Origin: Parapedobacter lycopersici | Lineage (GTDB): Bacteria; Bacteroidota; Bacteroidia; Sphingobacteriales; Sphingobacteriaceae | DNA: 64,000 nt | Direction: 5' to 3' | Assembly (NCBI RefSeq): GCF_024643285.1 | Contig: NZ_JAMSLW010000005.1 | Coordinates: forward strand, 294,049-358,048 | Shown here: piece after piece, positions 21,839 through 25,653 of the stretch | How the letters are laid out: every line of letters starts with the position of its first letter | Position numbering within the stretch: position 1 is the stretch's first letter | The notes under the pieces: model-generated | Databases searched by the model: none | Told to the model about the DNA's origin: nothing | Seen by the model: only the letters and a program-made list of their open reading frames with translations | Translations under genes and position numbers: made by a program

Positions 21839-22462
21839 ATGTACACGCACGAAAAACAAGTTATACAGGCCGGGACAGCTGTAGCACAGGCAAAAAGCGC
21901 CATTGTGCTGCTTCACGGCCGGGGCAGCTCGGCACAGGGCATTCTCTCCCTGCAGCATCACCTTCAGTTTACGGATGCTGCCATTGTGGCGCCGCAGGCA
22001 ACCAATAATACCTGGTATCCCCATAGTTTCATGGCACCGGTTGATCAGAATCAGCCGGCACTGGATTCCGCGCTGGCACGGATTGATGAGGTTTTTGCGG
22101 AGCTTGCCACGCAGGGCATGCCCGCAGAACAGGTATACCTCGTCGGTTTCTCGCAGGGTGCCTGCCTCGCCCTGGAATATGCGGCCCGCCATGCCCGTCG
22201 GTACCGCGGCATCGTGGCGTTTACCGGGGGACTTATCGGTGCCACATTAGACCACACATCCTATCAGGGTGATTTTGATGAAACACCGGTATTGATTACC
22301 GCCGGCGACCATGACGCACATGTGCCGCTGGCAAGAATTGAAGAAAGTGCCACCATCCTGCGGCAATTGGGCGCGCAGGTAACCACGGAGATTTATCCGG
22401 GAAAACCGCACAGCATCAGTGCCGATGAGACCTTGCTGGCCAACACCCTTATTTTCCAGTGA
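21839..22462 (+). CDS. Alpha/beta hydrolase, MhqD-like carboxylesterase
   Basis: A 207-residue cytosolic serine esterase of the phospholipase/carboxylesterase group. The nucleophile is in VGFSQGACLALEY near 101-113, the acid is in TAGDHDAHVPL near 158-168, and the His is in PGKPHSISADE near 188-198. LLHGRGSSAQGIL near 24-36 gives the oxyanion loop. It is co-transcribed with the ring-cleaving dioxygenase and probably hydrolyses a product or ester in the same quinone-detoxification route (inference from the mhq operon). The 11-bp repeat array begins 11 bases after its stop codon. Confidence 0.87.
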   Translation: MYTHEKQVIQAGTAVAQAKSAIVLLHGRGSSAQGILSLQHHLQFTDAAIVAPQATNNTWYPHSFMAPVDQNQPALDSALARIDEVFAELATQGMPAEQVYLVGFSQGACLALEYAARHARRYRGIVAFTGGLIGATLDHTSYQGDFDETPVLITAGDHDAHVPLARIEESATILRQLGAQVTTEIYPGKPHSISADETLLANTLIFQ

Positions 22463-22473
22463 GCAGGGCATGC

Positions 22474-22709
22474 TTCGAGTCGGCTTCGAGGGTGCTTCGG
22501 GTGTTGTTCGAGGGTTCTTCGAGACTTCTTCGGGAACTGTTCGAGGGCGCTTCGAGTGTTGTTCGAGAGTGCTTCGGGAGTCCTTCGACTCCGCTTCGGG
22601 CGCTGTTCGACCGGCCTTCGGCGGACACCGAACGAGGGCGATAAAACCCCCGGACCATTCCCGAAGCAGTACCGATGGGTATCCGAACAGGTGTTGAAGG
22701 GGTCCCGAA
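22474..22709. repeat. Array of 22 units with an exact 11-bp period, inverted halves
   Basis: Fourteen consecutive units of TTCGRGNNNNN start at 22474, 22485 and every 11 bases to 22617, with no slip. Eight reverse-orientation units of the type YCCGAANNNNN then start at 22627, 22638 and every 11 bases to 22704. Each forward unit is in register with a mirror unit: start positions sum to 45244 for every pair from 22617/22627 out to 22540/22704. Many pairs can form 4-6 base pairs. The array fills the 283-bp gap between the convergent mhqD-like and GH144 genes. It could be an RNA structure or a protein-binding array on one face of the helix. Confidence 0.9.
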
Positions 22710-22745: not shown

Positions 22746-24104
22746 CTAATCGATTTTGGGATGCTGAAACCCCAACCGTTTCAGTCCATGCTGTATTTCC
22801 GGTGCGCGCATGAACAGTTTCCACAGCAGGCCGCTGCGGTAATTTTCGATCATCGCCACAATCGGGCCCTGATCAATCGCGAGGTAACGCTGCGGAAACC
22901 AGTTTTCGGTTTCGCTGTAGGCATCGTAAAAGCCGTACTCCCCCCATAGGCGGTCGCCAAGTGTTTCATAGAAATAGCGCAACACCCGCATGCTGTATTC
23001 AGGGGTGTAGGGAATAGATGATAATGCCGCCGTAGGCGAAATGACCCCAAGGTCGTTATCGGGGTGGTGTGCGGCATATCCCTTTACGGAATAGCTTGCC
23101 GTAAAACCCCAGGCGTTTTCGCCATATCCCTTATAGCCGTTGGGGTTACGGAGCGCATGTGCCCGATTGATCAGTACGTGGTTCGTGTTCAGTTGCCAAT
23201 AGTCGGCATACCGGTCTTTAAGTTCCCTCGGGTCCAACCCCAGACACGAATAATGTGCCCAGAAAAGGGGTCCGACAGCGTCTTCGGGGGCGTTATGCCG
23301 GAGGATCACCGGAATCCCGTACTTTTTGTCGGCGGAAACAATGGCCCCCCCGCGGGCCCAGCCATTGTGATAGGCCGAAACGGGAATCGGATGCGTGGGC
23401 GACGAGGCCGCCAGGATGTAGGTAATCAGGCATTCATCGTAACCCTGTATGGCGTGGTTCATGCCCCACTGGTGTGTCGGGCTCCAATGCCAGAAAAGCA
23501 CATCCTGGTTATTCCGGTAAAAGTCCCAGTCGATTCCTTTCCAAAGGCTGTCGGCCTTTGCGGCAATCTCCCGGTTGCCGTCGTGTACGTCATTTCTAAA
23601 GTACTCGCGCACGCAGATCAGTGCCTGTGCCATGAAAGCGGTTTCCACCAGGTCGCCGCCATCGTCGCGGTCACTGAACGACTTGGTCCTGCCCGTGGGG
23701 CCGTAAAGCCAATGGGGCCATGCACCGTGGTACCGGTCGGCTGCCTTCAGGTAATCCATGATGTGCTTCAGCCGGCCGGCGCCATCGGCTTTGGAAATAA
23801 ATCCGCGTTCCATACCTACCAGCAGGGCCATTACGCCGAAACCACTGCCACCAATCGTAATTACGTCCCGATCGTTTTGCGGATATTCGCCATCGAGGTG
23901 TATGCGTTCACGGGCTAGGCCGGAAGTGGGCTCAGCTCCTTCCCAAAAGTAGCGGAATGTCTGGTGCTGTACCAGCGAAAGCAGCGAATCGTCCGTTAAT
24001 GGCTCCGGGTTAGCCGACCCGGACCGGGCGGTTTCCCGCCCGCCGCAGCCGCTTGCCAAGAGTAAAAATCCGGCAATGACGATAAAAAGGCCTGCATGCT
24101 TCAT
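22746..24104 (-). CDS. GH144-like glucanase lipoprotein (endo-beta-1,2-glucanase type)
   Basis: The start at 24104 gives about 452 residues beginning MKHAGLFIVIAGFLLLASGC, a lipoprotein signal with lipobox LASGC; the ATG at 24131 is a second option. The body has the hallmarks of the glucoamylase-like family that founded GH144: FRYFWEGAEPTSGLARER, SDRDDGGDLVETAFMAQAL, FWHWSPTHQWGMNH, and ENAWGFTASYS. Characterised GH144 enzymes cut beta-1,2-glucan to sophoro-oligosaccharides. It is the last gene of a SusC-SusD-glucanase operon, so the enzyme probably sits on the outer membrane or in the periplasm and feeds the SusCD transporter. Confidence 0.85.
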   Translation of the reverse strand: MKHAGLFIVIAGFLLLASGCGGRETARSGSANPEPLTDDSLLSLVQHQTFRYFWEGAEPTSGLARERIHLDGEYPQNDRDVITIGGSGFGVMALLVGMERGFISKADGAGRLKHIMDYLKAADRYHGAWPHWLYGPTGRTKSFSDRDDGGDLVETAFMAQALICVREYFRNDVHDGNREIAAKADSLWKGIDWDFYRNNQDVLFWHWSPTHQWGMNHAIQGYDECLITYILAASSPTHPIPVSAYHNGWARGGAIVSADKKYGIPVILRHNAPEDAVGPLFWAHYSCLGLDPRELKDRYADYWQLNTNHVLINRAHALRNPNGYKGYGENAWGFTASYSVKGYAAHHPDNDLGVISPTAALSSIPYTPEYSMRVLRYFYETLGDRLWGEYGFYDAYSETENWFPQRYLAIDQGPIVAMIENYRSGLLWKLFMRAPEIQHGLKRLGFQHPKID

Positions 24105-24141
24105 ATGAAAGGTTCCGTGTGCGCGCGTGTTCATCAGAGGA

Positions 24142-25653
24142 TTACGGATAGTCGGGATTTTGTTCCAATACGCCGCCCGAACGGTCGATTTCGATCTGGG
24201 GAATCGGGATGAACCGATGCCGCTGCTGGTAACTGGTTTCTCCCGCCGCATGCATCGTTTCGACATCGATGCCCCAGCGTACCAGATCAAAGAACCGCTC
24301 ATTCTCCATGCCCAGCTCCACCTGCCGTTCGTGGCGGATGGCCTGGCGGAGTTCTTCCTGGTCGCGGGTTGTTACCTCGGGGAGTACGCCGCTGTTGGCG
24401 CCCCGGGCCCGTGCGCGCACCTGTTCCAGGTAATCCAGCGCCAGGTCGATATTACTTTCCCCGCCGATTTCATTGGCGGCTTCGGCAGCCATCAGCAGTA
24501 CGTCGGCATAGCGTATCACCCGGAAGTTAAACCATTCGCCCTGCCGGCTTCCGGCTGAAGCCCGGATAGACGGATTGGTATACACCTTTTTGTTCCAGTA
24601 TGCGCGGTCCAGCCCGCCGGGTATCCGCTCACCATATGGTGCATTCACACTGTCGGAATAAAGAACGGTAACGTCCCTGCGCGGGTCTCCCTCCTCAAAC
24701 GCATCAAGCAGCACCGCATTGGGGATGTTCCAACCCCAGCCCAGGTTAAAGTCGCCGGCACCCCGGAGTCCCTGGCGGCTGGCATAGGTAATTCCCATCT
24801 CCCGGTTATTTTGCGTGTATACCGCCTGTATCTCAAACACCGATTCGCGACTATTTTCGCTTTCTTCGCGGAATATCATGTCGTAGGGAACACTCAGGTC
24901 ATACTGTCCGGAGCCAATAACAGCCTGTGCGGCTCCCAGCGCACCGCTCCAGTTGCTGCGCGCGAGGTATGTTTTTGCCTGCAGGGCATAGGCCGCGCCC
25001 TGGGTAAGGCGACCGGTAAAACGATCTTCCCAGGTGAGGGGCAGCACGGCTGTGGCTTCCTGGAGGTCCTCGTCGATAAGCGCATAGATTTCGGGGATTG
25101 TCGACTTGGGCACAATGGCCTGGTCCTGGGTGACGATAGGAAAGTCAATTTTGGGCACTTCACCAAATGTACGTACGAGGTTGAAATAAGCAAAGGCGCG
25201 TGCAAATTTAGCCTCCGCTACGTTGATGGCCGTCAGGTCCGTTGGCGTAGCAATAGAGTCCGCCGCCGCCAGGAGGTTGTTGGCCAGCGCAATCAGGCTG
25301 TAATGGTTTGTCCAGTAATTATTAATCAGCCAGTAGTCTTTGGTATATCCAAAATGGTCAAAGATAGGTGCCGCGGCTGCCTCATCTCCGGGTCCGCCGC
25401 CAATATCCGCGTCGTCCGAACGGATGTTGTGGATGGCAACGTAGGGCAATCCGCTGGTGCCCTCGCTGCGCAGTCCGGCATAGATCCCGAAGGCCTGCCC
25501 TTCAAGTGACCCGGCAGGAATGTCATCCTCCGTTAGGCGGCCAAGCGGGTCGCCACCCAGCCAGCTTTCGCCGCATGCCGTGAGCAATGCAGCAGCGGCC
25601 AGCAGGCAGGCAGACGCGATGAGGATGTGTTTACGGGTGTATATCGTTTTCAT
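24142..25653 (-). CDS. SusD/RagB family glycan-binding lipoprotein
   Basis: A 503-residue surface lipoprotein with signal MKTIYTRKHILIASACLLAA and lipobox LLTAC. Family features include the helical tetratricopeptide-like core (AEAKFARAFAYFNLVRTFGEVP near 146-167) and a C-terminal end of the RagB/SusD type (RHERQVELGMENERFFDLVRWG near 455-476). SusD caps the SusC pore and captures oligosaccharide. It follows susC by 17 bp and precedes the glucanase. The likely ligand is a beta-1,2-glucan fragment, inferred from the enzyme next door. Confidence 0.95.
   Translation of the reverse strand: MKTIYTRKHILIASACLLAAAALLTACGESWLGGDPLGRLTEDDIPAGSLEGQAFGIYAGLRSEGTSGLPYVAIHNIRSDDADIGGGPGDEAAAAPIFDHFGYTKDYWLINNYWTNHYSLIALANNLLAAADSIATPTDLTAINVAEAKFARAFAYFNLVRTFGEVPKIDFPIVTQDQAIVPKSTIPEIYALIDEDLQEATAVLPLTWEDRFTGRLTQGAAYALQAKTYLARSNWSGALGAAQAVIGSGQYDLSVPYDMIFREESENSRESVFEIQAVYTQNNREMGITYASRQGLRGAGDFNLGWGWNIPNAVLLDAFEEGDPRRDVTVLYSDSVNAPYGERIPGGLDRAYWNKKVYTNPSIRASAGSRQGEWFNFRVIRYADVLLMAAEAANEIGGESNIDLALDYLEQVRARARGANSGVLPEVTTRDQEELRQAIRHERQVELGMENERFFDLVRWGIDVETMHAAGETSYQQRHRFIPIPQIEIDRSGGVLEQNPDYP

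Follow-up and report, generated by a model that had tools for sequence, protein, structure and literature searches.

Mirrored rows of 11-bp units in Parapedobacter lycopersici and its relatives point to an undescribed chromosome-wide DNA element

Among the described systems closest to the arrays reported here are parC with ParR (type II partition) and tubC with TubR, in which rows of short direct repeats bind one dimer each and nucleate a helical protein-DNA complex (PMC5016525). In the R1 parC site the ten repeats are split into two blocks on either side of a centre (PMC5016525). REP sequences are 20-40 bp long and carry a GTAG or CGTC end (PMC3733652). The motif of E. coli gyrase is symmetric and 130 bp long with a 10.75-bp phasing of GC in its flanks, and BIME-2 elements are cut by gyrase (PMC6379681). 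Finally, a genome-wide dinucleotide periodicity of 10-11 bp has been described in bacteria and is often tied to underwound DNA (PMC4132750, PMC7537859), a link that one of these papers doubts (PMC7537859). Here, we describe arrays in which a short word returns every 11 bp in two arms of opposite orientation. They resemble the parC/ParR system in that iterons follow one another at a constant distance of about 10-12 bp (11 bp in 21 arrays), but there are at least 24 chromosomal copies, the halves are inverted about a dyad and the word is exchanged between species. Among 20 neighbour ORFs at 10 of the 21 P. lycopersici arrays there was no ParM/ParR partition operon. With REP/BIME sequences and their RAYT proteins the arrays share that they are dispersed, intergenic, palindromic, present in many copies and grouped in species-specific families. 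Unlike REPs they are rows with a fixed 11-bp step, have no RAYT and show no common GTAG/CGTC end in the array alignment. Strong gyrase sites (Mu SGS, E. coli) are alike in dyad symmetry and in flanks phased near 11 bp. The genome-wide periodicity also has a period near 11 bp, but it is a statistical bias, whereas the arrays are discrete elements whose word and places are fixed and whose halves mirror each other. In the open-access literature on 11-bp or intergenic repeats of Bacteroidetes, Sphingobacteriaceae and Parapedobacter (a scope outside which most subscription papers lie) we found no description of such arrays, and the repeats mentioned in the Parapedobacter genome paper are CRISPR (PMC7500135). 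Binding to a row of sites is itself known; what we regard as new is that a fixed step, a mirror design, conserved slots and a word that can be exchanged come together in one element.

We have analysed a 64-kb stretch of the P. lycopersici genome, here called the window, whose array lies at 22474-22709. The strong arm consists of 14 forward-strand units TTCG(N7) in exact 11-bp steps (22474-22620). It is followed by a short turn at the dyad, TTCG-GCGGACAC-CGAA (22617-22632), and by a weak, inverted arm with eight in-phase positions on the reverse strand (22627-22709). In the weak arm CGAA is expected at 22629 + 11k. It is exact at four positions (22629, 22662, 22684, 22706), has one mismatch at three (22651 CGGA, 22673 CGAT, 22695 TGAA) and fails at 22640, where GATA stands in phase and CGAT one base earlier. 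The original prediction had read the arms as 14 TTCGRG and eight YCCGAA units. TTCG is indeed exact in 14 of 14 forward units, but full TTCGRG in only 11 (the deviants are TTCGAC twice and TTCGGC once), and the inverted half exists but is clearly weaker than claimed, with YCCGAA exact in three of eight. The predicted mirror register holds, the unit starts next to the dyad adding up as stated (22617 + 22627 = 45244). The array was also said to lie between convergent genes, which Pfam bears out for both neighbours: the 283-bp gap separates an Abhydrolase_2 gene (21839-22462, forward strand; PF02230, 3.5e-22), whose stop is 12 bp before the array, from a Glycoamylase gene (22746-24302, reverse strand; PF10091, 9.6e-81), whose stop is 37 bp after it. 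The true start of the Glycoamylase gene may lie inside the 22746-24302 ORF. In none of the eight congeners, whose abhydrolase loci were fetched, does a glycoamylase gene stand beside this locus. A pattern of four TTCG at 11-bp spacing with up to two mismatches has 15 matches in the window, every one of them in the array, against a chance expectation of 0.06 from shuffles, and a lag-11 scan (77-bp scan window, score >=40) finds the array as the sole segment of the 64 kb. Rfam gave no match in the window at gathering score.

The array is one of a family. In the 3.62-Mb genome, three TTCGRG at 11-bp spacing with one mismatch allowed match 88 times in forward and 60 times in reverse orientation, and a control with the pattern reversed matches in neither. 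Among the matches listed there are 21 arrays including that of the window, and the 20 others were extracted and laid out unit by unit. All 21 share a common design, in which a strong arm of TTCG units leads through a turn into a weaker arm of CGAA units. The strong arm lies on either strand, and the arrays measure 158-257 bp from first to last unit. The 11-bp step is exact in all of them, and the weak arm is shifted by one base in three (L040, L045, L049). Of the 21, 19 have in common a core some 40 bp long that contains the palindrome TGCAA..TTGCA. The dyad of the arms coincides with that of the palindrome modulo 11 in 16 of these core arrays, the exceptions being the three shifted ones. The window array, L042 and L407 (the last from the later model search) have a short turn in place of the core. 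The unit consensus is TTCG R S N S Y K S. A sequence-only model built on 16 arrays found three further arrays at E <= 1e-3, which brings the total to at least 24, a lower bound given that the model search scored 150 of 994 first-look candidates. The original prediction had named the lack of a second array and a loss of phase between relatives as signs of a chance local expansion; we find the opposite, at least 24 arrays with the phase kept. The smallest distance between arrays is 50 kb among 21 (simulated P 0.004) and 42 kb among 24 (P 0.001). We do not rely on this even spacing, because it was noticed post hoc and because a weak 25th candidate (L410, E 0.23), about 18 kb from the neighbouring array, breaks the rule.

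The arrays do not favour one type of gap between genes. The 21 arrays occupy 5 convergent, 5 divergent and 11 tandem gaps, where 3.2, 5.8 and 12.0 are expected from a baseline of 225 junctions (P = 0.54); the types of L047 and L050 were assigned by hand, an ORF running through the array, and those of L041 and L047 are less sure, the left ORFs having no Pfam match. The suggested preference for convergent gaps is thus absent. In tandem gaps the strong arm is co-oriented with the genes in 7 of 11 cases, which is no clear tie. Replication polarity was considered as well and shows no link, strong-arm orientation splitting 9:4 under positive and 5:3 under negative GC skew, a weak proxy. In the divergent rimP and yjbR/dnaK gaps the array stands upstream of a genus-conserved block, which is presumed to carry the promoter. 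The block upstream of dnaK, found genus-wide (L342-L350), contains TGACA-N3-TGTCA as an inverted repeat, and TTGGCA occurs in it twice. The second TTGGCA, in the context TTGGCAC-N5-TTGT, resembles a sigma-54 promoter. Any frame through CGAA(N7) would encode an 11-residue repeat (R...E..SK..), and some frames are open into downstream genes. We have nevertheless dropped a coding reading, because the domains that Pfam finds start only past the array and most P. lycopersici arrays stand free. In two congeners (G005, G006; L304-L306, L309, L310) TTCG arrays lie within long ORFs whose frames are open through the array and continue into TlpA-like or CarboxypepD_reg proteins.

A second word appears within the genus. 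In the yjbR/dnaK gap of G001 the design recurs with GGTAA units, in an array that is absent from the six other congeners compared (G002-G006 and G008). Four GGTAA at 11-bp spacing with up to two mismatches match in six of nine genus genomes (G001-G006; controls 0-3), and the same pattern search finds no such array in P. lycopersici, G007 and G008. Species differ in the word that they use. Matches for TTCG and GGTA number 97/78 and 0/0 in P. lycopersici, 0/0 and 11/24 in G002, and 0/1 and 34/15 in G004. P. lycopersici and G008 have TTCG only, G001, G003, G005 and G006 have both words, G002 has GGTA only, as has G004 bar one TTCG site, and G007 has neither, bar one TTCG match. From five of the six GGTA genomes 19 GGTA loci were extracted. 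Where they are two-armed, the arm of TACC units precedes that of GGTA units, with a turn of TACC-5 nt-GGTA in 12 of 19.

These 19 loci represent 12 distinct slots, four of which are occupied in two to four species. Three of the 12 slots hold a TTCG array in P. lycopersici, against an expectation of 0.16-0.49 (P 0.0004-0.011, the range depending on which gaps count). The three are the HesB/synthetase gap (G002, G004, G005 and G006) and the yjbR/dnaK gap (G001), each with both neighbours shared, and the L035 gap (G002 and G004), with one neighbour shared. In the HesB/synthetase and yjbR/dnaK slots the strong arm of the congeners is reversed relative to P. lycopersici. The arrays at these two of the three shared slots can therefore not be plain orthologues in which just the word has been replaced. 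Of the 19 TTCG loci screened in relatives (14 from congeners, 5 from Olivibacter), not one shares a slot with a P. lycopersici array. L374 and L379 represent one slot, with 4 and 18 in-phase units. For the slot of L376 only one flank was found in G002, with no array nearby.

What is conserved in these rows is the word and its phase. Over units 1-8 of the strong arm in the 19 core arrays, mean pairwise identity is 0.987 for TTCG and 0.587 for the seven spacer positions, and in ten array pairs with <=14 spacer differences the motif differs at 0 of 32 positions each, against 5-13 of 56 in the spacers. The detailed alignment of orthologous arrays covers two pairs. In the first, G002 and G004 share a GGTA array between an aminoacyl-tRNA synthetase gene and a HesB-like gene (flanks judged by inspection). 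It aligns without gaps, with 58 of 62 motif but 47 of 79 spacer positions identical (Fisher 2e-6). The intergenic DNA on either side has an identity of 0.31-0.38 at ungapped positions, and a gapped alignment of the left flank reaches 0.38 against 0.25 (sd 0.11) for shuffles, which is near noise. The second pair (L377/L375) is 80% identical over 1132 bp with most GGTA kept, and its gaps comprise 44 bases, equal to four whole units, and 20 bases at the outer end. Motif and phase are, as far as these alignments tell, under purifying selection. About 800 bp upstream of thiC including a small TTCG array (L303, L320) are nearly identical in G001 and G004, where the neighbour genes differ, and this stretch is probably a recent transfer. 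Its identical arrays say nothing about selection, because they lie inside some 800 nearly identical bases.

Beyond the species, TTCG arrays (four exact units) occur in seven of eight congeners and in 11 of 60 genomes including P. lycopersici. Among 395 genomes drawn from the phylum 21 contain them, some of these matches being perfect short tandem repeats, and P. lycopersici has most; the reversed control pattern also matches a few genomes (18/12 in G268, 6 in G048). In the scans of named genomes and viral contigs, 18 of the 238 loci among the matches listed show the mirror order and two the opposite order, one locus showing both. The mirror-order loci among the matches listed include ones from Daejeonella, Olivibacter, Sphingobacterium and Leyella and further to Leeuwenhoekiella, Marinilabilia and Sediminibacterium, and one mirror array among the matches listed (L298) comes from a viral contig. 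In Parapedobacter and Olivibacter an order of small HTH gene, TTCG array and DUF6266 gene recurs (L301, L308, L311, L312, L314). A kinase or response-regulator gene precedes the DUF6266 gene in L311, L312 and L314, and DUF5675 follows it in some. In distant Bacteroidota (L064, L139, L141) TACC units extend the 11-bp rhythm outside the TTCG units, so that both words stand in one row. Segments with an 11-bp step and other words (CTTGGTTTGG, AGCTCCTAGTA-like) are found near TTCG arrays (L306 2243-2333, L309 2635-2753, L315 3143-3263) and possibly represent more motif classes.

Taken together, the arrays point to an undescribed chromosome-wide DNA element. The explanation that we favour, and to which we give about an even chance, is a host-maintained row of sites on double-stranded DNA for a putative sequence-specific DNA-binding protein that oligomerises. 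A word of 4-5 bp in every 11 bp, a mirror dyad and tolerance for changes in spacers and unit number would fit such a binder. Each row would offer some 10-30 sites, one per 11-bp unit, running both ways from the dyad, and the bound row would mirror itself at the turn, with one side extending further than the other. The binder might grow outward from the dyad, as ParR does on parC or TubR on tubC. The original prediction had held that a period of 11 places all motifs on one face of B-DNA. This fails for relaxed DNA: at 10.5 bp per turn an 11.0-bp step drifts by about 17 degrees per unit, which by simple arithmetic amounts to some 220-240 degrees over 14 units. The step fits DNA that is underwound by about 5%, or A-form. 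In DNA underwound by about 5%, 11.0 bp would correspond to one turn and neighbouring protomers could meet on one face. Joined protomers could then wrap or stiffen the intergenic DNA, with local compaction, topological insulation or nucleoid anchoring as conceivable effects. Step, mirror arrangement, lineage word and, at some loci, position are kept, while spacers and unit number are freer. On the other side, the rimP gap is empty in most congeners and many arrays fold better than shuffles. Of the options named in the original prediction, a nucleoid-protein array and a mobile repeat family both keep support from the at least 24 arrays, the selection on motif and phase and the lineage-specific spread.

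Mobility competes seriously as an account of how the TTCG copies spread, though as an explanation of the arrays we consider it doubtful. The arrays would be MITE-like non-autonomous elements, their two unequal arms being rows of transposase-binding sites and their word following the transposase of the lineage. The order of units and spacers outward from the core is kept between many copies, homologous at 19 loci, and because of this order the core TTCG copies must descend from one element; that they have spread as a repeat is therefore certain. The flanks of the 21 loci are dissimilar apart from the pair L041/L047 (124- and 160-bp duplicated region), the rimP array is absent from seven of eight congeners and copy number differs greatly between congeners. 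Yet no common terminal sequence extends past the arms in the array alignment, GGTA arrays have stayed in one slot across two to four species, preserving motif and phase despite the decay of the flanks, and the mirror design of strong and weak arms is kept in both motif families. The empty rimP and dnaK gaps of congeners are too diverged to place insertion ends. Mobilisation by a RAYT is ruled out by the absence of Y1_Tnp (PF01797) from P. lycopersici; seven of eight congeners lack it as well, and G007 has a single copy with internal stops. At L041 and L047 several hundred bp of regulatory DNA, the TTCG array included, are duplicated with 83-85% identity, and they stand upstream of a TlpA-like and a SusC-like gene. 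Beside the L047 array, about 300 bp away and outside it, lies a sub-threshold Rfam match to Pedo-repair (2428-2631, 26.8 bits against a gathering score of 150).

That the arrays act as RNA or single-stranded DNA, folding into an 11-nt ladder hairpin such as a bidirectional 3'-end or mRNA-stabilising structure, seems improbable. The helical pitch of A-form RNA is 11 bp, and folding gives this view some support: 15 of the 19 core arrays have a folding z < -2 relative to shuffles on both strands, and the window array reaches z -2.42 on the forward and -1.15 on the reverse strand. Near-perfect arm complementarity (0.80-0.87) was measured in 6 of 46 arrays, and these six belong to distant Bacteroidales or Prolixibacteraceae; two minor covariation measures are slightly above shuffles (29/500 and 38/500). 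The pairing ladder of the original prediction is, however, not the thing that is conserved. At positions 18-62 from the dyad the arms pair within arrays as well as between different arrays (0.567 vs 0.563, in 16 arrays with the three shifted ones, L040, L045 and L049, left out). Paired cells make up 67.9% against 67.4% in shuffles, 153 of 500 shuffles reaching the observed value, and the main measures reveal no convincing arm-to-arm covariation beyond shuffles. Units without a partner keep the motif, which argues against the ladder as the conserved feature. Among strong units of GGTA type it is intact in 169 of 212 without and 46 of 61 with a partner, a count over 18 GGTA loci in a few of which the turn is misplaced by some units. 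Wobble pairs are equal on both strands (127:127), gap types show no preference and the window has no Rfam match. A bidirectional 3'-end structure is in addition hard to reconcile with the 5 of 21 arrays in divergent gaps, where those at dnaK and rimP lie upstream of the presumed promoters. A transcription terminator or 3'-end hairpin differs in its 3' placement and its paired stem, for which the divergent arrays and the lack of cis covariation leave little room.

Still less probable is a strong site for DNA gyrase, or another wrapping protein, that is read indirectly through phased GC like the gyrase sites of E. coli and BIME-2. We considered it because the E. coli motif is symmetric with a 10.75-bp phasing and the enzyme cuts BIME-2, and the arrays are likewise symmetric, phased at 11 bp, intergenic and not bound to one word. 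The 11-bp GC harmonic of the strong arm is weak, however, with an amplitude of 0.08-0.15 that is below the 5.5-bp harmonic, and the GC phase relative to the dyad varies with array type (127, -100 and -77 degrees), so that gyrase-like phasing is both weak and inconsistent. The exact word is conserved, unlike what indirect readout would need. Neutral slippage, by which an 11-bp unit would multiply by chance and be inverted by template switching, is the most remote explanation: unit number does vary at orthologous slots (the 44-base gap of L375/L377, the 4 vs 18 units of L374/L379), but the motif is kept far beyond the spacers, the phase is kept while flanks decay and at least 24 arrays have one design, and the G002/G004 alignment already disfavours it.

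Beyond the favoured row of sites for an oligomerising protein, a tentative extension, which we place well short of an even chance, is that the arrays form a chromosome-wide DNA address system, in which 11-bp mirror rows at conserved slots would have their word (TTCG or TACC) swapped genome-wide between sister species, presumably together with the specificity of the reader protein. If this is true, the Bacteroidota would possess a chromosomal element of which the geometry and part of the positions are conserved, while the word is not. With such an element one could ask directly whether a nucleoid or anchoring protein evolves in step with the full set of its sites, and the rows would also serve as an in vivo reading of the helical repeat of underwound DNA. 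Should the arrays prove to be mobile instead, an element made of iterons only, with exact phase over 20+ units and reuse of slots, would still be new.
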